Source: an uncultured Candidatus Binatia bacterium (GTDB taxonomy: Bacteria; Desulfobacterota; Binatia; Bin18). Taken from it: a DNA stretch of 64,000 nucleotides. Below, piece by piece: positions 43,754-62,105 of this stretch. Each line of letters starts with the position of its first letter. Positions within the stretch are counted from its first letter, which is position 1. The stretch is from assembly GCA_958296235.1 (NCBI GenBank), contig OY282457.1, positions 372,001 to 436,000 of the forward strand. The letters run 5' to 3'. The notes under the pieces are model-generated. The model saw only the letters and a list, made by a program, of their open reading frames with translations. It did no database searches and was not told the origin of the DNA. A program made the position numbers and the translations under genes.

Positions 43754-44089
43754 CTATTCGCTCCTCCCCTTCTCCTCTGCTGCTCGTATTGCAATTTTCT
43801 CCACAGCAACCAGATACAAGGTCAGCTTTGTCCGCTCCAGGGTAAAACGGATATGGTCGCCGGGCTTGAGTTTATGGAGCAGACTGGGCTTGTTCACTTC
43901 AAAGCTCATAGTCATGGCCTCCATGAAGCCTGGAATGTCTTCGTGAGCGACGATGACGCGTCGGTCTGGGATCACGACCTTTTCGACAATCCCTTCGCCC
44001 GTGAGAATTTCAGGGGCGGGCGCAGGGCCACAGCCGGCACTCATGCCAAAGAGCGCCCACAAAACAAGGCTGATTTTCTTCACAGTCAC
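43754..44089 (-). CDS. CusF-like periplasmic copper-binding lipoprotein
   Basis: A 111-residue protein with a lipobox (LFGMSAGC) and one CusF-type OB domain. The segment VIVAHEDIPGFMEAMTMSFEV has the His, Met and Met of the Cu(I)-binding motif of CusF-like domains (HEDIPG, then FMEAMTMSF). It probably carries copper in the periplasm. With the copper monooxygenase cluster 4-12 kb away it suggests the organism invests heavily in copper handling. The neighbour just upstream is a NIPSNAP gene, 14 bases away. Confidence 0.82.
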   Translation of the reverse strand: MTVKKISLVLWALFGMSAGCGPAPAPEILTGEGIVEKVVIPDRRVIVAHEDIPGFMEAMTMSFEVNKPSLLHKLKPGDHIRFTLERTKLTLYLVAVEKIAIRAAEEKGRSE

Positions 44090-47978: not shown

Positions 47979-49691
47979 CTACGGCAGCGCAAAGACCGCA
48001 ACAGCGCTCCCCGGTGTGGTGTGGGGATATTTGCCAACGATATCCACGACCAGACCCCCGGCACCACTCGGAACGGCAATATATTGTTTGCCCCCGACCT
48101 TGTAGGAAATCGGTTGTCCCCGAACTGCTGACCCGGTCTGAAACTTCCACAAGACTTCACCTGTGGCGTCATCCAGAGCAAGAGCGTACCCCTTTTGGTT
48201 GCCCGTAAAGACGAGGCCGCCGGCTGTGGCGAGCGCCCCGCCCACCATCGGCCACTCGTCCTTGTAGCGCCACTTCACCTCACCGCTGGTGGGGTCTATA
48301 GCCGTGACGTGACCGTAGGCCGTACCGAGGTCGCCCTGGGTTTGTCCAGGCCCTCCGCCCCAGAATGGGATGCCTTTGATGAAAATGGACTTGGCCTTTT
48401 CCATTTTGCCGCAACTCTCTATTGTCGGGACAAAGATCAGGTTGGCCAGTGGGCTGTAGGCCGCAGCGTACGAGCCATTTTGTCCGCCCACATTCCCAGG
48501 GCAGATAAGTTCGGGATTGCCTCCCTCCAGGGGTACATACTTCGGGTCAACAATCGGTCGACCAGTTTCGTCCAGCCCTTTTGCCCAGTTGAGCTGCTCA
48601 ACATACTGAGAGCCGTGCAGAAACTTCCCATCCCCACGATTCAGGACATACATATAGCCGTTCCGGTTGGGCTGGGCTAAGGCTTTGACAGACTGTCCGC
48701 TGCGCGTTACGTCGAGCAGAAACATGCCCGTGTTGCCATCATAGTCCCAGACATCGTGCGGGGTGAATTGGAAGTACCATTTGATCTCCCCACTATCCGG
48801 GTCAAGGGCCAATACCGAGTTCGTATAGAGATTATCGCCCTCACGTCCATCGCCGTTCCAGTCCGGAGCCGGGTTGCCCGTTGCCCAATACACCAGGTTG
48901 AGGTCCGCATCGTACGAGCCCGTCACCCAGGCCGGACCACCGCCCTGTTTATATGAATCCCCGGCCCACGTCTCAACACCGGGCTCGCCTTTGTCAGGCA
49001 CGGTATAGCGGCGCCACTTCCGCTCCCCAGTCTCAAGATCATAGGCATCGATATAGCCGCGAATGCCGTATTCGCCGCCGGCAATGCCAACAATGACGTT
49101 ATCTCGGACAATCAGGGGGGCCAGGGTAAAGCTGAAGCCGCCGGCATAATCGTCGGCTTGCGTATTCCACACGACCGCACCGGTTTTTCTGTTGAGCGCG
49201 ACAATACGCGCGTCCAGAGTGGCCATAATGACCTTATCCCCAGCCAGCGCTGCGCCCCGGTTACCCGGCCCGCAGCAAATCCGCATATCGTCCGGCAATT
49301 CATGATCGTATTTCCAGAGCGGTTTACCCGTTGCGGCGTCTAAGGCAAAGAGCTTGTTGTAGGCTGCGGTGAGATACATGACACCATCGGCAACCAAAGG
49401 TGAGGCTTGCATTTGTGCGGGCACACCAGTTTGGAAAATCCAGGCGGCCTGAAGTTTTTTGATATTCTGGCGATCAATATCCGTCAGCGGGCTAAATCGC
49501 CAGCCGGCGTAATTCCCCCCGTACATCAACCAGTCAGCGGCGTTGGCCATGCCGTTGAGCAAACGCTCGTGCGTAACCGGCTGAAGCGCGGCGTCGTTCT
49601 TGGCATGAGAGTCAGCGTACAGTGCGGTTGGAGATAGCAGCATGAGCGTGACTGCTATCTGTAAAAATCTCCACAACCAGAAACCTCGCAT
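47979..49691 (-). CDS. PQQ-dependent alcohol dehydrogenase, lanthanide-type (XoxF/ExaF-like)
   Basis: A 570-residue periplasmic quinoprotein with a signal peptide (FLQIAVTLMLLSPTALYA). The start is ATG 49691 with GAGGAGG; the open frame is 75 bases longer. The vicinal disulfide C139-C140 (RICCGPG), the eight-bladed propeller repeats and the metal ligands E207 (GGEYG), N273 (GNPAPDW) and D316 are present. D318 follows in WDYDG; this extra aspartate two residues after the catalytic one marks lanthanide-dependent enzymes. It would oxidise an alcohol formed by the monooxygenase upstream to an aldehyde. No cytochrome cL gene is nearby, so the cupredoxin could be the electron acceptor (inference). 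Confidence 0.9.
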   Translation of the reverse strand: MRGFWLWRFLQIAVTLMLLSPTALYADSHAKNDAALQPVTHERLLNGMANAADWLMYGGNYAGWRFSPLTDIDRQNIKKLQAAWIFQTGVPAQMQASPLVADGVMYLTAAYNKLFALDAATGKPLWKYDHELPDDMRICCGPGNRGAALAGDKVIMATLDARIVALNRKTGAVVWNTQADDYAGGFSFTLAPLIVRDNVIVGIAGGEYGIRGYIDAYDLETGERKWRRYTVPDKGEPGVETWAGDSYKQGGGPAWVTGSYDADLNLVYWATGNPAPDWNGDGREGDNLYTNSVLALDPDSGEIKWYFQFTPHDVWDYDGNTGMFLLDVTRSGQSVKALAQPNRNGYMYVLNRGDGKFLHGSQYVEQLNWAKGLDETGRPIVDPKYVPLEGGNPELICPGNVGGQNGSYAAAYSPLANLIFVPTIESCGKMEKAKSIFIKGIPFWGGGPGQTQGDLGTAYGHVTAIDPTSGEVKWRYKDEWPMVGGALATAGGLVFTGNQKGYALALDDATGEVLWKFQTGSAVRGQPISYKVGGKQYIAVPSGAGGLVVDIVGKYPHTTPGSAVAVFALP

Positions 49692-49796
49692 GGATAATGC
49701 CTCCTCAGAGAGAATTGACGATAAAAAATGTGGTCGAACCCTACTGATTTTTAGACTGAAGGTCAAGGCAAAGAGCGCATATGACGCCCCAAACCC

Positions 49797-50513
49797 CTAT
49801 GGGAAAAGGCGCAACCTTCTCCCCACGAAGAGCGCCCCGACGATACCGAACAGAACGCCCGCCCCGTGCGTCCATCCGTTCCAGGCGAGTGCATACGGGT
49901 CCCGCAGCCGTGGTCCGGTCACACCAGGAATACTGGGCAGATCCCCATCTCCAGCACCAGCCTTGAGCTGCGCCTTCATTCCCTTTTCCATGTGCTGGGG
50001 AACATCACAGTGTACGAGATACGTCTTGTCTCCGGGCGGGAGAATAAACGTACTGGTCCGCTGTCCTTTGCCCGCCACTTCAAGGGTAAACATCCCCTGG
50101 GGGTAGATGTAGCGCGGAAGGCCGTGCAGCATCCACTGGTGACGAACGCTGTCCGTATTAATGAGCGTCACCGTGAGTTTCGTACACGGCTCAAAACTCC
50201 ATTCGCTTCGATCATACGCGAACATCGTCCCCGGGCGGGCAAATTCTTTTCCGGCGCGAACGGTGATCTCGTGTTCACCTGAGAGACGTGGACAACCCCG
50301 GGGGAGTTGGTCCGTGTTTTCATTCATCACCATACCTGCAGTATCGAGCTGCATCCCGTGATGATGATGGGCATGCTCTTGCGCCGCGCTGCCCGCGTTG
50401 AAAAGCACAGTAAACAAGGCGCTCACAATCAGTGCGGAGACGGTCCGCGGAAGATGCCTGCTCCGGGACACCCCTGTCCCCTTCCGATCCTCTTCTCTGA
50501 GAAAAAAATCCAT
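49797..50513 (-). CDS. Membrane-tethered cupredoxin (type 1 copper protein)
   Basis: A 238-residue protein: hydrophobic N-terminal segment, a histidine cluster after the cleavage area (EHAHHHHGM at about 46-54), a cupredoxin fold at about 75-185, and a C-terminal membrane helix (GVLFGIVGALFVG) ending in RRLRLFP. The type-1 copper ligands are probably H125 (VRHQWM), C169, H174 and M179 (HCDVPQHMEKGM). It begins 12 bases after the multicopper oxidase with GAGGAGA upstream. A periplasmic electron carrier linking the monooxygenase, oxidase and alcohol dehydrogenase is the likely role. The His-rich part may also collect copper. Confidence 0.82.
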   Translation of the reverse strand: MDFFLREEDRKGTGVSRSRHLPRTVSALIVSALFTVLFNAGSAAQEHAHHHHGMQLDTAGMVMNENTDQLPRGCPRLSGEHEITVRAGKEFARPGTMFAYDRSEWSFEPCTKLTVTLINTDSVRHQWMLHGLPRYIYPQGMFTLEVAGKGQRTSTFILPPGDKTYLVHCDVPQHMEKGMKAQLKAGAGDGDLPSIPGVTGPRLRDPYALAWNGWTHGAGVLFGIVGALFVGRRLRLFP

Positions 50514-50525
50514 TGAAGATTCTCC

Positions 50526-52226
50526 TCACCGGTGTCGAGTCCAGCGTCTTCTAAGGGAACAAGCCGCGCCGATGAGGAAGCCGATACCTATCCCCAACAT
50601 GAGGGCGTACCCCCAGGGCAGGGAGCGAGCGCCGGCCTCGCCAAGCAGACTGACGGCTTCCAGTTCAGCCCAGACGGGAATCTTCTTTTGATAATATTCC
50701 TTGGTGAAAAACGGCGCCCATTCCATCCCCTGCGTTTTCGGCTGGCCGGCTGTGCCCAAATAGTCCTGGTAGACAATGGCACTGATATTGCCACCAGGGT
50801 TGATCCCATCAGTGGTGATAGCCTTTTCCTTATGGTCGTGGAGCAGCCAGATGCCTGGTCCATAATTATGCAAGCCATCATCAGTGGTGTTGAGGAGGAG
50901 GTCCACCCGTTGGGCCGGGCTAATCCAGACGACATCACGGGTGATTTGCGCAGCCGGATTATGTTCGACGCCGTCGTAATGCGTCAGCCTGACTTTATGC
51001 CCATGCGTATGCAGCGAGATGCCTTCTGCTCCGCCATTGAGCACGCGCAGTTTGACGCGCTCATTCGGGGCGACAACAATAAGCGACTCACGGGTCGTGT
51101 AGGGAAAGGAGCGACCGTTAAGTAAGAAATAGTCAGGGTCTTGATCGGTAATATCATAGCGGCGATTGGTCGCTTCGGCGATTAATCGAGGATCGCCGGC
51201 GGTCTGAATAATATTATTCAACGTCGGGTCAATGTCCTGGTAGTGCAAATCGAATTCCCGGTCATACGACTCTCTGACTGCTACAGAGACGGAGCGCACC
51301 CGACCGGCCCCGATATTGAGCGTTTGGAGCCAGTTATTTGGCCGGTTGTCTTCAACCACAAACATACCCTGGAGTCCCATCAGAATATGGACATGGGGTT
51401 GGACGTGGCAGTGATAAAACATCGTACCCGTTTGACGCGGGGTCATTTCATAGGTACGGCTCGTCCCTGGTGTGACTGGCATTTCACTCGCAATCGGAAC
51501 GCCATCATTGCCCTCGCCGGTGGCGTCAACATAGGGATGGTCTACCCCGTGGAAGTGTATGGTGTGCGGCAGATAGTGCGCATTCTCCAAGGTCACCCGG
51601 AGCGTATCACCCTGCTCTACGCGAATCACCGGAGATGGGGCGCGCAGGGTCGGATGCGCCTGCTCACTCTCAAAGTTTTCAGTCGCCATGCCGCGCGATT
51701 TCGGTGCAAAAACCCAGAGTCCGGGCTGTACGCCAGGCGCAATAGCATAGGCGGGGAACGGCGCGGGGTCATCCGGTGAGTGCCCGTTCAGTTCTACGAC
51801 TTCAAGCCGGATATGAATCTCATCCGGGTCGCCATCCCCATCTCTGTCGTTCTCTTTCACCACCGTATTGGGCGTCAGCCGGGTCTCCATAAGGGTATGC
51901 AGGGCAATATTATTCGTTCCTTTGACAAAGGCCGCAATCTCCGCCGGGTTGTCTGGATCACACACCGGTGATGCTTCTACGGCAACGCCCTCAATAGTCT
52001 GAGGTTTCCGCCAGTCCGGGTGTCTGTCCAGACAAAATGGCTCCACACTGACAGGGCTTATTTCACGACTGGGAGGCGGCTTGTGGTAGGACTCTTCACC
52101 GATATATTGATACGCAAAGTCTTGTATTGGGCGGGGGAGCCAGGCACGCGGAACGAGAAAAAGCGTCCCAAGAGCGAGCACACTCAGAAGAAGGCAGAAA
52201 AAGAGCAGACCGCGCAGCCACATCAT
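50526..52226 (-). CDS. Membrane-anchored multicopper oxidase
   Basis: A 566-residue protein with membrane helices at the N-terminus (LLFFCLLLSVLALGTLFLV) and C-terminus (YALMLGIGIGFLIGAACSL). Two cupredoxin regions are present. The first contains HTIHFHGVDH (H221-H230) and YHCHVQPHVHILM (C273, H278, M283), the only HCH cysteine motif. The second contains LHTHGH (H406-H410) and LLHDHKE (H463, H465) without the Cys-His pair expected in three-domain laccases. It thus resembles the two-domain oxidases, or a nitrite-reductase-like arrangement. An EF-hand-like DRDGDGDPDE near 127-136 may bind calcium. It lies between the second 190-residue protein and the cupredoxin. Function could be copper oxidation or electron transfer to O2. 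Confidence 0.85.
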   Translation of the reverse strand: MMWLRGLLFFCLLLSVLALGTLFLVPRAWLPRPIQDFAYQYIGEESYHKPPPSREISPVSVEPFCLDRHPDWRKPQTIEGVAVEASPVCDPDNPAEIAAFVKGTNNIALHTLMETRLTPNTVVKENDRDGDGDPDEIHIRLEVVELNGHSPDDPAPFPAYAIAPGVQPGLWVFAPKSRGMATENFESEQAHPTLRAPSPVIRVEQGDTLRVTLENAHYLPHTIHFHGVDHPYVDATGEGNDGVPIASEMPVTPGTSRTYEMTPRQTGTMFYHCHVQPHVHILMGLQGMFVVEDNRPNNWLQTLNIGAGRVRSVSVAVRESYDREFDLHYQDIDPTLNNIIQTAGDPRLIAEATNRRYDITDQDPDYFLLNGRSFPYTTRESLIVVAPNERVKLRVLNGGAEGISLHTHGHKVRLTHYDGVEHNPAAQITRDVVWISPAQRVDLLLNTTDDGLHNYGPGIWLLHDHKEKAITTDGINPGGNISAIVYQDYLGTAGQPKTQGMEWAPFFTKEYYQKKIPVWAELEAVSLLGEAGARSLPWGYALMLGIGIGFLIGAACSLRRRWTRHR

Positions 52227-52281
52227 TCAACATGTACTGTGAACAGAGCGTTAGGAAAAGGGGGGATGGGTGGTTTCGCAC

Positions 52282-52854
52282 CTATCCCTTGGCCAATGTA
52301 CGTGGCGGAACCTTTTTCACCGAAAACGGTGGCCAGCCGAGTTTACCACCGACAACGTAATAGCCAACGCCACAGCCAATGAGCAGGCCCGCGATCAAGA
52401 CCAGTATGGTATTTGAGAGTGAAGCGACTCGAATGGGAAACCGCACAGACCCATCAACCCCGTCAAGTGTCATCAGGGCCGTATATTGGCCAGGTGTGTC
52501 AAAATGGACTTCAGCATTCACCACGCCGCTGGGATACACCCGGGCCGGGATATCGAGCAACAGGCGAGGTTCAGCAGTATTGGTTTCCTCAATAATGCGC
52601 ACCGCAGCTGATTTCTTGCGCAATTCAGGATCAATCAGATCAAAAACGAGAATCGCACTCCCGGTCAGAGGAACGCTCCGACAGAATTCTTCGGTTGCGT
52701 ACTCTTGCGGCTGGTAGGCAGAAAAATGGATCAGATAGACGCCGGCCCGCTCTATGCAGGGGTCCAGATCCATGGCGACACCCCCATGTCCCCAGGCTCC
52801 CGTTGGGACGAGGAGCAGGGCAACAAGGGAGAAGAGTTTCACAATGCTGTCCAA
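52282..52854 (-). CDS. Exported membrane-anchored protein paired with the copper monooxygenase (paralogue of 56269-56841)
   Basis: A 190-residue protein with a signal peptide (LFSLVALLLVPTGAWG), a mature start predicted as HGGVAMDLDPC, a beta-rich domain and a C-terminal helix (LVLIAGLLIGCGVGYYVV). The conserved residues H23, C33, H43 and C58 match H28, C37, H47 and C62 of the paralogue, with shared LDPC/GDPC, YQPQ/YQTQ and EEFC/TEYC. Cys and His in such spacing could bind copper or form a disulfide. The start is TTG at 52854 with GGAG upstream. Not a family I can name with certainty; PmoD-like function is possible but sequence similarity is not evident. It follows pmoB by 41 bases. Confidence 0.8.
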   Translation of the reverse strand: MDSIVKLFSLVALLLVPTGAWGHGGVAMDLDPCIERAGVYLIHFSAYQPQEYATEEFCRSVPLTGSAILVFDLIDPELRKKSAAVRIIEETNTAEPRLLLDIPARVYPSGVVNAEVHFDTPGQYTALMTLDGVDGSVRFPIRVASLSNTILVLIAGLLIGCGVGYYVVGGKLGWPPFSVKKVPPRTLAKG

Positions 52855-52895
52855 CGAGGCTCCACCCGCGGGGAGGTCTGTCCCCGCTCTGGAGC

Positions 52896-54155
52896 TTATG
52901 GCAGATAGGTCGAACGGAACTGGGTGGGGACGACGTTTGAACGGACCGTCACGAACTCATGACCGTCGTTCCCATTCTCAAAGCGTAAGACTGCGCCAAT
53001 AAACTGCTGCGGCGCTTGCGTCGGGATGAGACGCTCTTCGCTGAAAATACTACTTGAAATAGTCAGGGTCAGCTCTTTATTTTCGCCCGGAGCAATCGGC
53101 CCGTCCGGCTGGACTTCGAGCCGACCGACAAAATCACTCGGCCCAGCTTTGGCCTGTTCGGCTTCCGGTCCGTTCACGAAGGTCGCCATCGCTATAGTCA
53201 GTTGCTTCAGTGCGATGTCGCTCTGGATAACATTCGTCACCTGGACCTTCATCTCAAGCGTTTCACTCGCTTCGTCATACGTCGCCCCGCTGGCCCGAGC
53301 CTCGGCCATTTTCTCGCCGGAAGAAATGAATTCCGGTGTAAACCAGTCCGTTTGCTGTGGCCAGCGAACTGGCGCATTTGAGGTGGCATACGTCCAACCG
53401 ACCACCAGCATCACCAGGGTCACGCCAACGATAACATTCATCCACATATGGTCGCGGGGCGTGATGAGGCCAATATCGGGGGCATCATCGTTCACCGGAA
53501 GCTGGACAGTAACGGCGAGATTGGTCACCGTTCTTTTATTCGTCGTCCAGTACAGTATCCAGATAAACCCCAGGACAAATCCGGCGAACGACCACCACCA
53601 GACAAACGCACCTCCATAGGTGCTGAGTTCAATCGTCTCACCAGACATCAGGGTGAGTGGGAAGGAGAACGGCTCGTCACTCGGTTTGACGGTCACCCAC
53701 TCGCCAGGTCCAATCAGTGTACCGGTCCCATAGACTGCGATACCGGGATGCACATGCCAGTCCCCAGGCTCTTTGCCAACAAGCTCCATTTCAAACTCGT
53801 AAATGCCCCCCTTTTGGGCAAAAAACGAGCCGATCGCAGCCGTTCCATTGACAAAACGCTCTTTAAGCACAAAGACCGGTCCGGGAACGACCGGCATAAT
53901 GGAAGCAATTTCTGGCGTCTCTAGCGTATGCGGCCACGTCTCCAGGATCTTGACCGAGCCCGTCACCCTGACCGGCTCTCCAACCTCGATTTCAGTCGGC
54001 GACACGCTGACGTTGAAGAAAGCCGTTGTCATGTTTTTCAAGAACGGTTCGTCTGCCGCCTCACCGTGGGCAGCGGCGTTCGGCGGATTGGCAAGGACAA
54101 CGGCCAGTATGACGCATAGCGCGCCAACACTGCCAATCACGAACCGCTTACCCAT
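52896..54155 (-). CDS. pmoB: Copper membrane monooxygenase subunit B (PmoB/AmoB family)
   Basis: A 419-residue subunit, as long as methanotroph PmoB. A signal peptide (ALCVILAVVLANPPNAAA) exposes H30 as mature N-terminus. H30, H134 and H136 (GDWHVHPGIAV) match the three-histidine copper site (His33, His137, His139 in Methylococcus), all shifted by three. The bis-His site residues of Methylococcus (His48, His72) are not evident. Two membrane helices (WWWSFAGFVLGFIWILYW and NVIVGVTLVMLVVGW) separate two cupredoxin-like domains. AGGAGGG precedes the ATG. It forms the enzyme with PmoA and PmoC; the small protein gene upstream overlaps its start by 8 bases. Substrate may be methane, another short alkane/alkene or ammonia. 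Confidence 0.93.
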   Translation of the reverse strand: MGKRFVIGSVGALCVILAVVLANPPNAAAHGEAADEPFLKNMTTAFFNVSVSPTEIEVGEPVRVTGSVKILETWPHTLETPEIASIMPVVPGPVFVLKERFVNGTAAIGSFFAQKGGIYEFEMELVGKEPGDWHVHPGIAVYGTGTLIGPGEWVTVKPSDEPFSFPLTLMSGETIELSTYGGAFVWWWSFAGFVLGFIWILYWTTNKRTVTNLAVTVQLPVNDDAPDIGLITPRDHMWMNVIVGVTLVMLVVGWTYATSNAPVRWPQQTDWFTPEFISSGEKMAEARASGATYDEASETLEMKVQVTNVIQSDIALKQLTIAMATFVNGPEAEQAKAGPSDFVGRLEVQPDGPIAPGENKELTLTISSSIFSEERLIPTQAPQQFIGAVLRFENGNDGHEFVTVRSNVVPTQFRSTYLP

Positions 54156-54489
54156 CGGCCGCCCTCCTGGTTTCGGGCTGTTCGTCCGGGAGCTGGGGTC
54201 TCGTTTCTATGACACGCAATCGGGGCTTACGCTTGATGCGAATGACCGGACCCGTTTCCGGCAACCCGCCTCCGTCCGTCTCTGCACTCTTCGATACTGG
54301 CCACAAAACCACCAGCCAATAACACACAAAGCCTAAGATGCCTGCGGTAATGACGGGCGGGGCTATTTCAGAGATATTCATGCCGTGCGCATACACGGGG
54401 GAAGGAAACAGAGACAGGCCGGCAAGAAGAGCCACGAGAACAGAGCAGACTCTTCCGTATCGGGCGGGCTGCTGAGGTTCGAAAGACAT
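54148..54489 (-). CDS. Small HG-type membrane protein between pmoA and pmoB
   Basis: About 113 residues (start ATG 54489 with GAGG; the frame begins 12 bases earlier). A signal peptide ends in PSPVYA, giving the predicted mature start HGMNISEIAPPV, like the HGEAADE of PmoB. One membrane helix (VITAGILGFVCYWLVVLWPV) is followed by a basic cytoplasmic-style tail (RIKRKPRLRVIETR). The gene overlaps pmoB by 8 bases and lies 19 bases after pmoA, so it belongs to the core operon. I do not recognise it among PmoD/AmoD/AmoE types; it may be an additional small subunit such as those seen in membrane monooxygenase structures. Confidence 0.75.
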   Translation of the reverse strand: MSFEPQQPARYGRVCSVLVALLAGLSLFPSPVYAHGMNISEIAPPVITAGILGFVCYWLVVLWPVSKSAETDGGGLPETGPVIRIKRKPRLRVIETRPQLPDEQPETRRAADG

Positions 54490-54508
54490 ACCGCGCCTCA
54501 TATTTGTC

Positions 54509-55312
54509 TCACATAGTTTTCAGATAGCGCCGAATCGGCCACACTGCCAGATACCGGCCAATAAACTGACCGATCCAGTAGCCAACAAAAGCTGCCGTTC
54601 CAGCAAAGGCCAGCGAAACGTATTGCGTCTCACCCAGGAAACTCCGCAACGCGCCGCGTTCAATCAGCCGGAGGTATTCCGGGGTTTGAGAGCGGATGTA
54701 GGCAATGCCTTGAACATCAGCAACCGTCACCACATGATCCATAAAATGGGCCGGCTGGAGGAAGGCAGCTAAGGGGACGTAATTATAGGCCCACACCGCA
54801 ATCGCCCACACGTGGGCGCCGATCAGCGAGGTGAGGATAAAACTCTTGGTTTTCATTAAGGTCCAGTCCATCAAGATCCCGGCGCAGACGACGGAGGCAG
54901 GCCACACGAAGTTCATAGGGTAGGTCGCTGCGAGGTCCCACTGGAAATACCGTCCAACCCAGGCCGCGAAAAACAAGCAACACGCAGTGTAGGTCGCACC
55001 GGTCGGAAAGCGCCAGGCGGTCCATTGGATGTATTGCAGCGTCGAGGGAATAATGATTGTGGCAAAGGCCGTGACTACAGGCCACCACTGAGGATCTTTC
55101 CAATCGGTCCAGAAATCCCAGTCGCCGGCAAATAATTGCTTGGTGATATCAGCGGCACCGGCTACCACAAAAACCGCCGTAGTCCAGAAAACGAGGTCCC
55201 ACTTCCAATCAATCCACTTATACTTCTTGTTGAGCAGTTCTTTGAGTTCGAGCCGCCGTTGCCGTTCCGCCGCCTCTGCCAGGTCGGTTACGGTTGTGGT
55301 TTCCGTCGCCAT
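54509..55312 (-). CDS. pmoA: Copper membrane monooxygenase subunit A (PmoA/AmoA family)
   Basis: A 267-residue integral membrane protein with about seven helices. It carries the signature region AGDWDFWTDWKDPQWWPVV, used in the standard pmoA/amoA survey primers, plus YPMNFVWPASVVCAGILMDW and the C-terminal IRSQTPEYLRLIERGALRSF. These define the family but do not separate methane, ammonia or hydrocarbon enzymes. AGAGGAAGG precedes the ATG. Order C-A-small-B is close to pmoCAB. The family is known in methanotrophs, nitrifiers, alkane-oxidising actinobacteria and several uncultivated phyla. Confidence 0.94.
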   Translation of the reverse strand: MATETTTVTDLAEAAERQRRLELKELLNKKYKWIDWKWDLVFWTTAVFVVAGAADITKQLFAGDWDFWTDWKDPQWWPVVTAFATIIIPSTLQYIQWTAWRFPTGATYTACCLFFAAWVGRYFQWDLAATYPMNFVWPASVVCAGILMDWTLMKTKSFILTSLIGAHVWAIAVWAYNYVPLAAFLQPAHFMDHVVTVADVQGIAYIRSQTPEYLRLIERGALRSFLGETQYVSLAFAGTAAFVGYWIGQFIGRYLAVWPIRRYLKTM

Positions 55313-55369
55313 GCGCCCTTCCTCTCTGCACGAGGACTTTCGATACGTTTATCGACCCACGCCACCGTA

Positions 55370-56218
55370 TTAATCGGCGGCGAGCGGCGACTCAAGCGAG
55401 GCTTCCGGGTTGGCATCCTCTTCGGTCTTCTCGACCTCGAACATACGCACCAGGGTTTCACCCCATACCGCAAACATACCGGCCGCAAGCCAGCCATAAA
55501 TCACAAACGGCCAGTGAAACGGAACAGAGAAGATTTCTTCAGAGATCCACAGGCTATGGCCCCACTCGTTGGCGGCCACCGCCATACATTCGAGTACACA
55601 GGCACTGATCAGCAGAAAGAACGACCAGGGAAATCCTTTGTCTTTTCCGTACAGCGCCGGAATGTGGAACCGCCCGTAGATATAGGTCCCGACGGCCAAT
55701 ATGACCGAGAGGGGGAAGAAAAAGTAGAACATCGGAATATGGGTCGGGGTAAATGCCGTGTCACGAACCATGGTTTGGTGCCACGATCCGTCCCAGTTCG
55801 GCCAGAAGCTGGCCATCAGATAGATAGCCAGACTCGTCGCGCCAATGAGGCTCCACAAAATCGCAATCCGGCGCGTCTCTTCGGCGGGTGAGCATTCTTG
55901 TCCTTCAATGGCCCGGCCATTCCGTATGAGCCAGCCCAGCCACACACCGCTGAATACGCCTAAGACGATCAATTCACCCCAGAACAGCGTCCAGTAATAC
56001 ATCGTGAATTCAGCGCTTGCTGAGTTCAGTCCAGCAGTGAACATAAAGGCGTAGTTCCAGTACCAGAAAAAGACATTGGCAAGCATGATAAGCCCGCACC
56101 CCCAGAAGAGAGGATGCCAGCCGACCGACCAGTCAGTCGGGTTGGCAGGGTTGCCAGTTGTCATGGAGCCGTCGCCGGAACCTTTCGGTACATTTTGTAC
56201 TGCTTGTGCCTGAGCCAT
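55370..56218 (-). CDS. pmoC: Copper membrane monooxygenase subunit C (PmoC/AmoC family)
   Basis: A 282-residue membrane subunit with about six helices. Both metal sites of methane monooxygenase are intact: D143, H147 and H160 correspond to Asp156, His160, His173 (CuC), with identical spacing. N217, H221 and H235 correspond to Asn227, His231, His245 (CuD), again with identical spacing (AANEWGHS and SVPFHWPF). These sites are essential for activity, so the enzyme is predicted functional. GAGGAGGG is placed before the ATG. It is preceded 50 bases upstream by the first 190-residue accessory gene. Confidence 0.95.
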   Translation of the reverse strand: MAQAQAVQNVPKGSGDGSMTTGNPANPTDWSVGWHPLFWGCGLIMLANVFFWYWNYAFMFTAGLNSASAEFTMYYWTLFWGELIVLGVFSGVWLGWLIRNGRAIEGQECSPAEETRRIAILWSLIGATSLAIYLMASFWPNWDGSWHQTMVRDTAFTPTHIPMFYFFFPLSVILAVGTYIYGRFHIPALYGKDKGFPWSFFLLISACVLECMAVAANEWGHSLWISEEIFSVPFHWPFVIYGWLAAGMFAVWGETLVRMFEVEKTEEDANPEASLESPLAAD

Positions 56219-56268
56219 GCCTATCCCTCCTCAATAGTAATAACGCGGTTACTGTACACTCTCTCTCT

Positions 56269-56841
56269 TTATTTCACCAGCTCTTCTCTGCTCCGGGCAG
56301 TGATCTTATAGCGAATCACCGAGACAGCAAGAACGGTCACCACTCCGAGCACGATCAGCGCTGGCCCGACCAAAGCCTTATACCATGCCGCCACTTGAAA
56401 GGGAAATGAAAATTTACGCGGCTCTGGTTCACCGGTGAGCCCAAGCAGGACACGCACTTCGTAGCGAAGTCCGGCCTTCACAACGACCTCGGCGTTGGCC
56501 ACGCCACGTTCATACACCTGTAAAGGCAGGGACAGGATCGGACTCGACCGCCCGGATTCATCCGAAGCAAGGAGTTCAACGCCGATCGGCCTTTCCCACA
56601 GATCGGGCGTCACATCCACGACCAGGAAGGCAGTACCCACCCGCGGGATTTCTTCACAATACTCCGTCACCGGATCGAATTGGGTCTGATAAAACGTAAT
56701 ATGCAAGAGCGAAGCGCCGACCTCTCGCCGGCACGGGTCTCCAGGCCCTCTGTCCCGGTGCGCCCCGGACGGCACGGGAAGCGCCAGGCAGAGCGCCGCT
56801 CCGACAGCGAGAAGAGAAGAGATTCGGCAAACGCGTCCCAT
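56269..56841 (-). CDS. Exported membrane-anchored protein paired with the copper monooxygenase (first gene of cluster)
   Basis: A 190-residue paralogue of the protein at 52282-52854. Signal peptide (LLAVGAALCLALPVPSGA), predicted mature start HRDRGPGDPC, a beta-rich domain and a C-terminal helix (LVGPALIVLGVVTVLAVSVI). Shared positions H28, C37, H47, C62 keep C-to-H (10) and C-to-C (25) spacings identical in both. It is the leading gene of the monooxygenase operon, with a candidate promoter at 56883-56911. A copper delivery or assembly role is inference. Confidence 0.78.
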   Translation of the reverse strand: MGRVCRISSLLAVGAALCLALPVPSGAHRDRGPGDPCRREVGASLLHITFYQTQFDPVTEYCEEIPRVGTAFLVVDVTPDLWERPIGVELLASDESGRSSPILSLPLQVYERGVANAEVVVKAGLRYEVRVLLGLTGEPEPRKFSFPFQVAAWYKALVGPALIVLGVVTVLAVSVIRYKITARSREELVK

Positions 56842-56931: not shown

Positions 56932-57822
56932 TTAGCGAAGGGAGCGATCAATATCAACAAAGAACGACAGGAGGGCCGCATTGAACGCCGGCCAATGCCT
57001 ATGTGCGCCAGTTCCTTCACAGTATATGGTTTTGCTGTTTGCCGGACATCCCGAGTAGGCCATACAGCCGTTTTCGTCCCTGTCAACTAAACGGGACTGA
57101 CACTTGTTACACAACGCGAGCCAGGCAGCCGCCTCAGCCCCGTAACCGGGGAAAAGATGGTCGTTGGCGCTGTGCATAATCAGAGCGGGCAGGGTTTCGG
57201 GACACGAGAAGGTTTCGAGGTCGGCCCGCCTGAACCCGGCTGCGCTCGGCGCCACCGCAGTCGGGATGTGGCGTGTCTCGTCCAAAAGCGCGAGTGCCAG
57301 GGCAACCGTTCCGCCGTCAGAATGGCCGGTCATATAGACTCGCCGTTCATCAACACACCATTTTTTGGCGATAAGCCGCGGGATCGTCCCGAGTTCAGGA
57401 ATGATTTCGAGTGAAAGACGACGCGAGTCAGCATAGGCAACGACAAAGCCCGCGGTCGTTGCCGTAAAAGTCAGATTGGTCAGCCGCTCTGAGCGCAACC
57501 GACTTGAGCCTGCTGGGGCATAGACCATGAGGAGCGGATGAAGAATGCCTGGATTGTAGTTGGCCGGCGTCCGAACCGCATACGTAATCCCGTGTTCGGT
57601 CTGCTCGTCGTTGCTCATCCCGCCGTGTCCGCTCCGTTCACCGAGCGGACACGGCTCGACGCTGGGGTCGTTACTATACGTATGCCGGCCTAACTTGGGT
57701 GGTTCGCCTGGCAATTCAGAACATCCAGCCCCCCAGAGGACGAAGACAACGAGACAGAGCATCCGGCACTGAATCCTGCTCAGCGATATGGGGCGGCAGT
57801 AACGTCTCTCCGCTTGTCCCAA
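56932..57822 (-). CDS. Esterase-like lipoprotein (PHB depolymerase family)
   Basis: A 296-residue exported alpha/beta hydrolase with a lipobox-like WGAGC near residue 34. The nucleophile elbow is GHSDGGTVALAL, an acid is in HSANDHLFP, and a histidine in GAHRHWPAF. About ten cysteines suggest several disulfides. The start could be TTG 57822 (AGGAGAGG upstream) or ATG 57762. It ends 90 bases before the monooxygenase cluster in the same direction, so it could be cotranscribed with it, but the candidate promoter between them argues against it. Confidence 0.75.
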   Translation of the reverse strand: MGQAERRYCRPISLSRIQCRMLCLVVFVLWGAGCSELPGEPPKLGRHTYSNDPSVEPCPLGERSGHGGMSNDEQTEHGITYAVRTPANYNPGILHPLLMVYAPAGSSRLRSERLTNLTFTATTAGFVVAYADSRRLSLEIIPELGTIPRLIAKKWCVDERRVYMTGHSDGGTVALALALLDETRHIPTAVAPSAAGFRRADLETFSCPETLPALIMHSANDHLFPGYGAEAAAWLALCNKCQSRLVDRDENGCMAYSGCPANSKTIYCEGTGAHRHWPAFNAALLSFFVDIDRSLR

Positions 57823-57909
57823 TGGCCCTCTCCTGCTTGCTGCGTCAATGCGTCTCAGTTTATACTACCGGCTCTATCTGAGGGAACAGCAATCGGTAAG
57901 GAGGGACCT

Positions 57910-59025
57910 ATGCTCTCGGTTTTTTCAGCCCCCAGCCACTACGTACAAGGGAAGCACGCCACTGCCGCCTTGGGAACGGAAATGCAGCGTATTGGCTTGC
58001 AGGGACCGGCCTGTATTGTTGCCGGGAAAAGCGCCATTCGGCTGCTCTCGGAAGTCTGGCAGAAACATTTGAATAATGCCGGCATCACCCATGTCGTCCA
58101 TCAGTTCGGGGGGGAGTGCTCCTACCCTGAAATCGAACGTATCAAAGAAACGGCGCGGGCGAATAAGGCTCAGGTCATTATCGGCGCGGGCGGCGGGAAG
58201 GTATTGGATGCGGCCCGGGCCGCCGCCGACGACCTTGACCTGCCTGTCGTCAACTGTCCAAGCATTGCCTCAAGTGACGCGCCGTGCAGCGCGCTGTCGG
58301 TGATTTATACTCCCGAAGGAGTATTCCAGGAATATCGCTTTTATCGCAAGAACCCGGATTTGGTTGTGGTGGACACCTCTGTTGTCGCCCAGGCTCCGGC
58401 CAGGCTGCTGGTGGCAGGGATGGGAGATGCGCTGGCCACCTGGTTCGAGGCCAAAACCTGTGTTGCCGGTCATGTCCAGAATATGCGTGGGGGAGCCTCA
58501 ACGCGCAGCGCCGAAAAGCTGGCGGAGCTGTGCTATAATATCCTGGTTGAAGACGGCCCGGATGCGAAACGGGCCGTGGAACGTCACGTTGTCAATCCAG
58601 CCCTGGAGCGGCTTGTCGAAGCCAACACCCTGCTGTCGGGTCTGGGCTTCGAGTCCTCAGGGCTTGCCGCAGCCCACGCCATCCATAATGGCCTCACCGC
58701 AGCCCCGCTCACCCACCCCTACTATCATGGGGAAAAAGTCGCCTACGGTCTTATCTCCCAGTTAGTGCTCGAAGGTCAGCCACGCTCGGTTATCGATCCG
58801 GTGCTGGAGTTTTCATCCGCGGTCGGCCTGCCCATTACCCTGGCCGAGATCGGGCTCAACGAATTCCCGCAAGACATGCTTGAACAAGTGGCCGCGCGGG
58901 CGACCGCCGAAGGGGAAACCATCCATAACGAGCCGTTTGACGTGCAGCCCGACATGGTTGCCGACGCCATTCTGGCCGCGGATTCGATGGGCCGCGCCTG
59001 GCAGGATGCACACACGACGGAGTAA
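57910..59025 (+). CDS. gldA: Glycerol dehydrogenase-like iron/zinc-dependent alcohol dehydrogenase
   Basis: A 371-residue group III metal-dependent dehydrogenase of the GldA type. The nucleotide segment IIGAGGGKVLDAARAAADDL and NCPSIASSDAPCSALSVIY are family motifs. Metal ligands are D in GDALATWFEA, H in AAHAIHNGL and H in HPYYHGEKVAYG. It would interconvert glycerol and dihydroxyacetone or a related diol with NAD+. AAGGAGG precedes the ATG at 57910; a longer frame runs into the divergent gene. It is divergent from the esterase-like gene, with about 90 bases between. Confidence 0.87.
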   Translation: MLSVFSAPSHYVQGKHATAALGTEMQRIGLQGPACIVAGKSAIRLLSEVWQKHLNNAGITHVVHQFGGECSYPEIERIKETARANKAQVIIGAGGGKVLDAARAAADDLDLPVVNCPSIASSDAPCSALSVIYTPEGVFQEYRFYRKNPDLVVVDTSVVAQAPARLLVAGMGDALATWFEAKTCVAGHVQNMRGGASTRSAEKLAELCYNILVEDGPDAKRAVERHVVNPALERLVEANTLLSGLGFESSGLAAAHAIHNGLTAAPLTHPYYHGEKVAYGLISQLVLEGQPRSVIDPVLEFSSAVGLPITLAEIGLNEFPQDMLEQVAARATAEGETIHNEPFDVQPDMVADAILAADSMGRAWQDAHTTE

Positions 59026-59078: not shown

Positions 59079-60437
59079 TTACTGTTGCGCTTTGACCTCA
59101 ATGAGCGGAGAGGAGATGTCGAAGACCAGATGTCCGGCTTCTTCTTGCAAACGGTAGCGCTGCGCCAGCTCTGCGGAGATGGCAACGCTCCGGTCTTGTG
59201 GGAATTTATCTGGGTATAAGCGGGGACGGAGGAAGAATTTTTCCGGAGAATAGACCAGGGATTGGGATTTGAGCGGATACTTGAGCCAACTGCGGCGCAT
59301 GAAATCGGGCTCAAACATCGTCGCCTGATCTTCTGGAGACCACTCCTTCACCCAATGGGCATCATGCGCGCTATAGCTCATCAGGTCGAGGGCGAGGTCG
59401 TAGTAGACCGTAAACAGTCCGGCATAGCCGCGTTCTTCCAGCGCCGGGTTGACGAGATAGGCATTCCGCACCTCAATCACCCGCAGTTGGTTGTCATTGT
59501 CATACTGCTCAATCCGCAACGGATAGAAACTGTGCTGATCGAGCCAGTATATCAACCGGCTCATACGGTAGTGCGGCAGCCAGTCTTCTTTCCTGGTCGC
59601 CTCAACCACATAACAGGCCACTCCACCGTCTTGCGTATAATGTGGATAGGTGTCACCCAGCATTGTAATCTGGTCCGATGGGACCTCATTAAAACTTCCG
59701 TCGGGCTTGGCCAGGGTGACCGTCGGGCGGGTATTGGGGAAGCGAATAGTCTCATGCAGGACATCCGTGCCAAGCAGTCGCCACGAGAACTCCCAGGCAT
59801 CGCGCCCCACCACATCCTCAAAGGTCTGGACATTATTGGGAAACTGGGCGTCCCGGCGGGGCTGAGGCTGGCGGCGCACGCGGCGTAAGGTTGGGCTATA
59901 GATGAAATTGTCCAGTTTGGTCGTTTCTTCCTTATCCGTCCGTCTCAAAATCCACAGGTCCTGAAGACCCTGATTCTCGGGCGGATAGGTATAAAAGAAG
60001 ACCATCCGAAAATAGTCCTCCCCTGGCGTCATGCTGAGCTGGCCGGGCACACCGTCTTCGTCCGGGAGGTAATGGCTATAGCCCAGCGTAATGCCTTCAT
60101 CCAGAAAGCCATTGCTGGTAATCGCGCCAAACACATCCGCCATAGCGTGTGACCAGCGAGCCACATGCGGAAATTCCATGGAACGATAGCCCATCTCTTC
60201 CGCGGTATAGGGCGGTTGAAAAGGATAGGCTTCCGCCGGGAGGTAGGGAATCGTCCTATCTCGGGGGGTATCGACCCGAAAATCAAGGCGCGATTTTTCC
60301 GCCTCGGACAGCTCCGCTACCGTTTTCCAGGTCTGCCGATGGCCGCCGTTCTGCTCAGCCGCCTCAGCAATCGATACAGCCAAGCCGAAGAGAAAAGAAA
60401 AGGCCCATACCGTCAGGAAAAAAAAGTGTCTGTTCAT
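59079..60437 (-). CDS. DUF1329 family exported protein (outer-membrane lipoprotein-sorting-like)
   Basis: A 452-residue protein with an N-terminal signal peptide (FFFLTVWAFSFLFGLAVSIAEA). The DUF1329 fold resembles a lipoprotein-sorting (LolA/LolB-like) beta structure. The next gene, a DUF1302 barrel, begins upstream on the same strand, and the two families are commonly paired in hydrocarbon- and lipid-degrading bacteria. It could bind a hydrophobic molecule between membranes. The frame extends 30 bases further to a GTG; I preferred ATG 60437. Confidence 0.82.
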   Translation of the reverse strand: MNRHFFFLTVWAFSFLFGLAVSIAEAAEQNGGHRQTWKTVAELSEAEKSRLDFRVDTPRDRTIPYLPAEAYPFQPPYTAEEMGYRSMEFPHVARWSHAMADVFGAITSNGFLDEGITLGYSHYLPDEDGVPGQLSMTPGEDYFRMVFFYTYPPENQGLQDLWILRRTDKEETTKLDNFIYSPTLRRVRRQPQPRRDAQFPNNVQTFEDVVGRDAWEFSWRLLGTDVLHETIRFPNTRPTVTLAKPDGSFNEVPSDQITMLGDTYPHYTQDGGVACYVVEATRKEDWLPHYRMSRLIYWLDQHSFYPLRIEQYDNDNQLRVIEVRNAYLVNPALEERGYAGLFTVYYDLALDLMSYSAHDAHWVKEWSPEDQATMFEPDFMRRSWLKYPLKSQSLVYSPEKFFLRPRLYPDKFPQDRSVAISAELAQRYRLQEEAGHLVFDISSPLIEVKAQQ

Positions 60438-60476
60438 AAGATGATCGTCCGGTGAGAGCTCTTTCACGCCGGTCGG

Positions 60477-62105
60477 TCAGAACTCGTAACTCAGTTCCCA
60501 GCCGATATTATCCCATTTGTTAAATTGGCCGTATAAATCAGTCCGATCACCGCTACTGAACGCCGTATAAATGAGGCGACCGGTCACAAATTGGGAAAAG
60601 CGATAGCTCGAAACAAATTTCGTTTTTATGCCCTGCCATTTCTTCTGCGGCAAACTGATAACGGGAACAACGGTCAACTCCAGGCGCAAACGGTCACGGG
60701 TGAAGCGAAACGGGCGCCCAACAAAGAAGACCGGCAGGAGGCTCATTTCATCTCCGATCCCTCCGCCAAAGCCCCCGCCGAGATTGCGACGCCAGTCAAA
60801 AGTATACAAGAGTGAGGGTTGTATAATCGCAGAGGTATTGCCGGGAAAGGCGAACTCCAGCGCAATCGCGGCCCGCAGGGTATCGCGCCGAATGATGCCC
60901 GAGTTGAGATTCCCGTCCCGCGCCGCCTGCTGATGGTCAAAGTCGGCGAAGGGAACGTCTTTGGTCCACAAACCCTCAACCCGCAGCACAATGGGCAGTT
61001 CGCCGACAAGCGGCATGTTCGAGAGCGCGGAAGCATAGTCGGCAGTGACGCCGAGATGATGCATGCGGGTAAAACGCGGCTGAAAGGTCAGATAGGGGTC
61101 CCCGGCGGCATCGATATCGCGGGCGACAATGAAGGACGTCGGGTTTTTGTTCCAGGCGTAATAATAAATAAGACCCCAGGTGAGCGGTTCCATGGAAACA
61201 TCAAGCCGCAGGCCATATTGATGGTCGCCGAAGTCCCCCATAGACGGCCGCTTCGTCTCTCTGAACTGATCCCCGGTCGCATCTTGCCGTCCGTCCAGGA
61301 GCGCTTTCGTCTCGGTATCCCTGGGCGGAGCCAGGGGCGAATACCACGGTGAGCCAGGGACTGGATTGCGGTCTTGCTCAAAGTTCGGAATCCACAGGAA
61401 GTTGAGAGAGTTTGCCCCAAAGAAATAGGTCACGTTCGCCATCCAGGCCGGCAGCCGTCGCCACTCGTAGTCGCTCGCCTCAAGCTGGACGGACTCGCGC
61501 CGGTCCATACCGTTGATGACGTCAATATACTGGCCGTCCATTTTACCCCAGGCGATTTGCTGTTTGCCCAGGACCACATCAAGGTTGTGGGTGCGATAGC
61601 TGACATACAACTCGCGTACGATGCGCTCGAAGTTATGATAGGCGCGGAAGGTCTCGCTCGTCCGGGGGGCAAACAGACCGGCAGAATCCTGCCAGTTGTA
61701 CACACTGTCGTACATGAAGTTGTTGATATTGGTTATCTCGATATTGGGTGAGACCTGGTAGTGGAGCTCCAATTCCAACAAATTCTGCATCTGGGAAAAA
61801 CGGAAGTCTTTCTGTCGATTGCCAACACGCCGGTCGCCCGAGAGTTGGATATCGGACCATTGGCGGAGAAATCCCCGGAACGTCAGAGCCGGGATCTGGC
61901 GTTCGACGGGCTGGCGGACGTACCGCCCAGCCGGATCAAAGGTGGACAGAAAGCGATCGAAGCGTGACCAGGTATTCACGACCGCATCAACCTGTTTGTC
62001 CATGAAATAGCCATAACAGGGAGAAACATTGGCCGAGACCGCCAGGAGCAACAGTCCGCCGATGACGCTACCGACTACGGATATGAGCCCGCGTTTACCG
62101 TGCAT
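60477..62105 (-). CDS. DUF1302-type outer-membrane beta-barrel protein
   Basis: A 542-residue exported protein: signal peptide (VVGSVIGGLLLLAVSANVSPCYG), then about 16-18 amphipathic strands, ending in the typical aromatic C-terminus WELSYEF for barrel assembly. The strand FRGFLRQWSDIQLSGDR and VVLGKQQIAWGKMDG are family-like. DUF1302 proteins act as outer-membrane channels or adhesins for hydrophobic substrates, usually next to DUF1329. AGGAAAG precedes the ATG. Placing this pair beside a monooxygenase cluster is suggestive of hydrocarbon uptake. Confidence 0.82.
   Translation of the reverse strand: MHGKRGLISVVGSVIGGLLLLAVSANVSPCYGYFMDKQVDAVVNTWSRFDRFLSTFDPAGRYVRQPVERQIPALTFRGFLRQWSDIQLSGDRRVGNRQKDFRFSQMQNLLELELHYQVSPNIEITNINNFMYDSVYNWQDSAGLFAPRTSETFRAYHNFERIVRELYVSYRTHNLDVVLGKQQIAWGKMDGQYIDVINGMDRRESVQLEASDYEWRRLPAWMANVTYFFGANSLNFLWIPNFEQDRNPVPGSPWYSPLAPPRDTETKALLDGRQDATGDQFRETKRPSMGDFGDHQYGLRLDVSMEPLTWGLIYYYAWNKNPTSFIVARDIDAAGDPYLTFQPRFTRMHHLGVTADYASALSNMPLVGELPIVLRVEGLWTKDVPFADFDHQQAARDGNLNSGIIRRDTLRAAIALEFAFPGNTSAIIQPSLLYTFDWRRNLGGGFGGGIGDEMSLLPVFFVGRPFRFTRDRLRLELTVVPVISLPQKKWQGIKTKFVSSYRFSQFVTGRLIYTAFSSGDRTDLYGQFNKWDNIGWELSYEF

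Follow-up and report, generated by a model that had tools for sequence, protein, structure and literature searches.

The nine-gene cluster at positions 47979-56841 of the window (the whole 64,000-nucleotide stretch of DNA analysed) is probably a chromosomal operon whose products oxidize a short-chain (C2-C4) alkane in the periplasm of a sponge-type Binatia bacterium. In the pathway proposed from its genes, a copper membrane monooxygenase (CuMMO) trimer, PmoCAB, probably with a small protein X, would hydroxylate the alkane at the copper site of PmoC, and a lanthanide/PQQ alcohol dehydrogenase would oxidize the resulting alcohol to the aldehyde in the periplasm. Proteins D1 and D2, a multicopper oxidase (MCO) and an anchored blue copper protein (CUP) would provide copper loading and/or electron transport for the CuMMO. 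The original prediction of a route from a small substrate to an aldehyde with built-in copper proteins is supported in outline and can be refined, in that the accessories belong to the PmoD family and the dehydrogenase is PedH/ExaF-like. Its gene order (D1, pmoC, pmoA, X, pmoB, D2, MCO, CUP, PQQ-ADH) and coordinates proved correct; all nine genes lie on the minus strand, with intergenic gaps of -8 to +57 bp. The cluster and two adjacent genes comprise:

56269..56841, minus strand: D1, PmoD-family protein encoded upstream of pmoC (signal peptide, domain of PmoD type and TM helix at the C-terminus; Cx9HxnC)
55370..56218, minus strand: PmoC/XmoC, 282 aa (D143/H147/H160 and N217/H221/H235 intact)
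54509..55312, minus strand: PmoA/XmoA, 267 aa, hydrocarbon-monooxygenase clade (Pfam, tree, NCBIfam scores)
54148..54501, minus strand: X, small bitopic membrane protein (gene between pmoA and pmoB; alignment, conservation)
52896..54155, minus strand: PmoB/XmoB, 419 aa (H30/H134/H136 intact)
52282..52854, minus strand: D2, PmoD-family protein encoded downstream of pmoB (Cx9HxnC; phmmer against PmoD 6CPD, E=4.7e-10)
50526..52226, minus strand: MCO, two-domain-type multicopper oxidase (best PDB matches 2ZWN and 3G5W)
49797..50513, minus strand: CUP, membrane-anchored blue copper protein (His/Met-rich N-terminus)
47979..49766, minus strand: PQQ alcohol dehydrogenase, PedH/ExaF-like (TIGR03075, 603 bits)
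56932..57822, minus strand: secreted alpha/beta hydrolase, PHA-depolymerase/esterase-like (Pfam and NCBIfam)
57814..59025, plus strand: GldA-type Fe alcohol dehydrogenase (NF006941, 491 bits; cut-off 336)

The window comes from a genome assembled as one contig of 4.62 Mb and 98% complete, that of a sponge-type Candidatus Binatia of the family Bin18. Among named genomes, its best relatives are Candidatus Binatia MAGs, one of them 'bin18' (MPMI01), reported from the sponge Aplysina aerophoba (Murphy 2021, PMC8262859; Ramirez 2023, PMC9999580). A 16S search of the genome returned nothing, and the identification is based on named loci that are nearly identical. Identical gene order and flanks recur in independent assemblies and the codon GC agrees with that of neighbouring genes, ruling out foreign DNA or misassembly; the possibility, raised at the outset, that the cluster had entered from another organism through assembly is likewise contradicted by the long contig and this recurrence. 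Window-type PmoA is found in 14 of the 16 genomes of the order (6/6 of the high-quality ones), which as sampled consists of one family with seven genera, designated g1, g2 and so on. Three MAG records named 'Klebsiella pneumoniae' (L019, L054, L055) carry CuMMO loci of Binatia or gammaproteobacterial type, and the name looks wrong.

The alpha/beta hydrolase gene lies 90 bp upstream of the nine genes on the same strand and is a possible operon member; in unrelated lineages, homologues are encoded no more than 10 kb from CuMMO operons (L041, L055-L058, L060, L063, L071, L087). The GldA-type dehydrogenase gene is divergent to the operon and linked to it in genera g1-g3, and its product is a candidate participant in the pathway. 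It adjoins a DUF1329 and DUF1302 gene pair (window 59079-62105). A CusF-type periplasmic copper-binding protein is encoded about 4 kb from the operon (window 43754-44089).

The three core genes, xmoC, xmoA and xmoB, are contiguous and their products contain Pfam domains scoring above cut-off, placing them in the CuMMO superfamily (pMMO/AMO/HMO). E-values were 1e-42 for AmoC, 3e-53 for AMO, 5e-68 for Monooxygenase_B and 4e-181 for the PQQ alcohol dehydrogenase; the multicopper oxidase domain was also confirmed. Most of the length of PmoC, PmoA and PmoB can be aligned to pMMO and AMO chains of solved structure. The metal ligands, predicted to be intact, are numbered exactly as proposed and show none of the loss on alignment that would have spoken against the assignment, the six PmoC residues being identical in 65/65 aligned PmoC and the three PmoB histidines conserved in all aligned PmoB.

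Phylogeny, the check suggested originally, points away from the methanotroph and nitrifier enzymes. In a FastTree of concatenated CAB sequences, the window PmoCAB is separate from both and sits inside a Binatia clade, which nests with sequences from Rokubacteria, Chloroflexi, Acidimicrobiia and Nocardioides; the next group contains the plasmid HMO of Mycolicibacterium NBB4, Rhodococcus WAY2 and M. dioxanotrophicus. This position with actinobacterial BMO/HMO makes the enzyme a member of the butane/hydrocarbon monooxygenase clade. SH support is 0.92-1.0 at most nodes and 0.58 at one, and a tree of PmoA alone, to which further Binatia sequences were added, gives the same placements with lower support; the trees have an arbitrary root, as they lack an archaeal outgroup, and contain Nocardioides but not strain CF8 itself. 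The family scores agree: the curated cut-offs of the methane/ammonia monooxygenase equivalogs (TIGR03078-80, NF041557/640/641) are not reached by either CuMMO copy of the genome (see below), the scores being similar to those of the Nocardioides and NBB4 HMO; the same cut-offs are passed by the controls from methanotrophs, nitrifiers and Cycloclasticus. The actinobacterial systems (M. chubuense NBB4, Nocardioides) also have an alcohol dehydrogenase nearby; however, the neighbour of the NBB4 HMO is an NDMA-dependent Fe-ADH, whereas the window operon has a PQQ enzyme, and no homologues of X, PmoD, MCO or CUP were detected in the HMO/BMO loci examined. Oxidation or detoxification of ammonia is very improbable. 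CuMMOs do co-oxidize ammonia, and the best NCBIfam names are AmoA/B/C, but PmoA, PmoB and PmoC all score well below the equivalog cut-offs and linked alcohol dehydrogenases fit poorly with this substrate.

The linked dehydrogenase matches PedH (6ZCV, its best PDB match) at 422 bits versus 336 bits for XoxF, keeps E232, N298, D341, D343, C164 and C165, and has the second Asp expected for lanthanide binding (WDYD; D343). Being nearer to PedH than to XoxF/MxaF and having the extra Asp, it is assigned to the PedH/ExaF (ethanol) type, with predicted lanthanide dependence; PedH/ExaF enzymes share its WDxD motif. It differs from PedH/ExaF in its surroundings, as neither a cytochrome gene nor a periplasmic binding-protein gene stands beside it. 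Since the cluster contains no cytochrome gene, CUP or an unlinked cytochrome are candidate electron acceptors of the PQQ enzyme. A paralogue 73% identical to the linked enzyme is encoded at 1.63 Mb with MoxJ-like and cytochrome genes. A true XoxF (798 bits versus XoxF 4MAE) is encoded at 3.19 Mb, about 2.8 Mb from the operon (or 1.85 Mb on a circular chromosome), accompanied by an XoxJ/G-like protein of its own, and the presence of this XoxF makes methanol use likely. The PQQ gene is linked to the CuMMO in two genera only: in g1, it shares a contig with pmoA in five genomes and lies on a different contig in the other two, and it is also linked in g2 (G008). In g6 and g7, the place beside D1 is taken by a GMC oxidoreductase together with a Tat-signal protein (L115 5001-7285, L117 10574-12714). 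A genome search for formaldehyde oxidation, as proposed earlier, found neither Fae nor Mch, both of the H4MPT route; methylmalonyl-CoA mutase is present in three copies.

These data favour C2-C4 alkanes because PmoCAB belongs to the butane/hydrocarbon clade with PmoA below the AmoA/PmoA cut-offs, the linked dehydrogenase is PedH-like while the true XoxF is far away, Fae and Mch were not found while methylmalonyl-CoA mutase is triplicated, and g6 and g7 have the GMC oxidoreductase in place of the PQQ enzyme beside the operon. On the other side, methylmalonyl-CoA mutase is widespread among bacteria, XoxF is encoded in the genome, the PQQ linkage is confined to two genera, PedH-type enzymes may act on other alcohols, and C1 metabolism could follow a route that does not use H4MPT. 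The C2-C4 reading also draws on Nocardioides CF8, which belongs to the same clade and oxidizes C2-C4 hydrocarbons, not methane (Murphy 2021, PMC8262859). However, CuMMOs are promiscuous (PMC6215863), and other formaldehyde routes and serine-cycle genes occur in Binatota (Murphy 2021, PMC8262859). Methanotrophy, with methane converted to methanol by the window CuMMO and then oxidized by XoxF or the linked PQQ enzyme, has been proposed for the sponge 'bin18', whose pmoA (CuMMO copy unspecified in the sections available) is transcribed in sponges where methane sources were also proposed (Ramirez 2023, PMC9999580). The true XoxF with its XoxJ/G-like partner would suit such a pathway, but the clade, the PedH-like character of the linked dehydrogenase and the failure to find Fae and Mch make it rather unlikely.

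The genome encodes a second CuMMO (C1:2773330-2776344; L007 13192-16542), whose metal ligands are intact and whose PmoA is 35% identical to that of the window. Two copies are present in all g1 and g2 genomes searched, and within the order the second is restricted to these genera. In the tree, its long branch arises separately, basal to the group of the window copy and outside methanotroph PmoA. A division of labour, with the window copy acting on C2-C4 alkanes and the second on methane or another small molecule, would be compatible with the C2-C4 reading of the operon and is possible, if doubtful. The divergence of the two PmoA, the intact ligands, the occurrence of both copies in all g1 and g2 genomes searched and the separate long branch are in its favour, but the second enzyme also stands outside methanotroph PmoA, has no characterized relative, and has no linked alcohol dehydrogenase (nor PmoD) among the neighbours examined.

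Among the copper accessories, D1 and D2 share with the Methylocystis PmoD (6CPD) its fold, paired Cys and TM helix, and both have the signal peptide, PmoD fold, two invariant Cys and C-terminal TM helix of PmoD/AmoD proteins, the fold of D2 being deduced from sequence. The AlphaFold model of D1 (pLDDT 85) has PmoD 6CPD as its best Foldseek match (TM 0.74 on target), with a weaker sequence match (phmmer versus 6CPD, E=0.0016), and H28, C37 and C62 are invariant in its alignment. CuA-forming PmoD proteins follow the motif rule Cx7MxHxnC (PMC6189053), whereas D1 and D2 have Cx9HxnC, with Leu at C+8. Because Leu stands where the CuA-forming proteins have Met, D1 and D2 probably bind copper without forming CuA. 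MCO is a two-domain multicopper oxidase, with the type-1 Cys273 located in domain 1, HDH but no Cys in the second domain and a complete trinuclear-cluster His set; its copper residues are invariant in 19 homologues. In CUP, H125, C169 and H174 are invariant and M179 is present in 17/18 sequences; phmmer gave no useful match in the PDB, and an AlphaFold model of moderate quality retrieved auracyanin/laccase-domain cupredoxins with Foldseek (E~2e-6). The operons of Cycloclasticus, UBA2780 and Skermanella, from a distant CuMMO clade, likewise continue after pmoCAB with PmoD and with the MCO and blue-copper protein found here; this recurrence marks the block as a general CuMMO companion. However, these operons lack X and a D1 upstream of pmoC, and no homologue of the PQQ gene was detected near them.

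The gene for X adjoins pmoA in 14/14 genomes of the order with window-type pmoA, and lies between A and B in all readable Binatia window-type loci. The protein has a single helix and is conserved, with the motif AHGx..E.GPP..YW..LWP and an invariant His39 directly after the likely signal-peptidase site (deduced from the sequence), so that this His is the predicted mature N-terminus. PmoB H30 and the first His of D1 and D2, which is likewise invariant, are placed in the same way. X probably serves as an extra membrane subunit or as a helix that handles copper. The more specific proposal, that Binatia-type CuMMOs have X as their fourth membrane subunit, with the His at its mature N-terminus binding copper beside PmoB, is speculative and unlikely; if true, these CuMMOs would be structurally unlike the solved pMMO/AMO trimers. 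A second X-like sequence, not near pmoA, occurs in five genomes (G001, G002, G003, G005, G006), with an in-frame TAG in 4/5 cases, and is absent from the window's genome.

Much of the setting has been described before. These CuMMOs, their CAxB order, pmoD and the BMO-like clade were reported by Murphy 2021 (PMC8262859), with the same findings and the substrate left open in mSystems 2024 (PMC11264602), and bin18 was treated as a methane sink by Ramirez 2023 (PMC9999580). The original remark on a non-classical context therefore holds for the organism, which is not a classical methanotroph, but had already been published for the family in these three papers. The A. aerophoba bin18 (GCA_002238415.1; MPMI01, L012), of the same genus-level group, has a PmoA 99% identical to that of the window, the same gene order, CAxB arrangement and PmoB copper His, and two CuMMO copies (L012, L047). 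The available sections of Murphy 2021 (PMC8262859) do not describe D1, X, MCO, CUP and PQQ as one operon, nor the type of the linked dehydrogenase. New here are the assignment of both accessories to the PmoD family, the conservation of X with its invariant N-terminal His, the PedH/ExaF type of the linked dehydrogenase, the GMC oxidoreductase by the operon in sister genera, and the failure to find Fae and Mch. The make-up of the operon speaks against the proposed methane-oxidizing role and favours C2-C4 alkanes. Sponge Binatia are cited as a shallow-sea methane sink on the basis of pmoA, and given the clade, the PedH-like dehydrogenase and the missing H4MPT genes, Binatia pmoA should not serve as an untested methane marker. 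X, D1, D2, MCO and CUP are concrete candidates for the copper and electron supply of CuMMOs.
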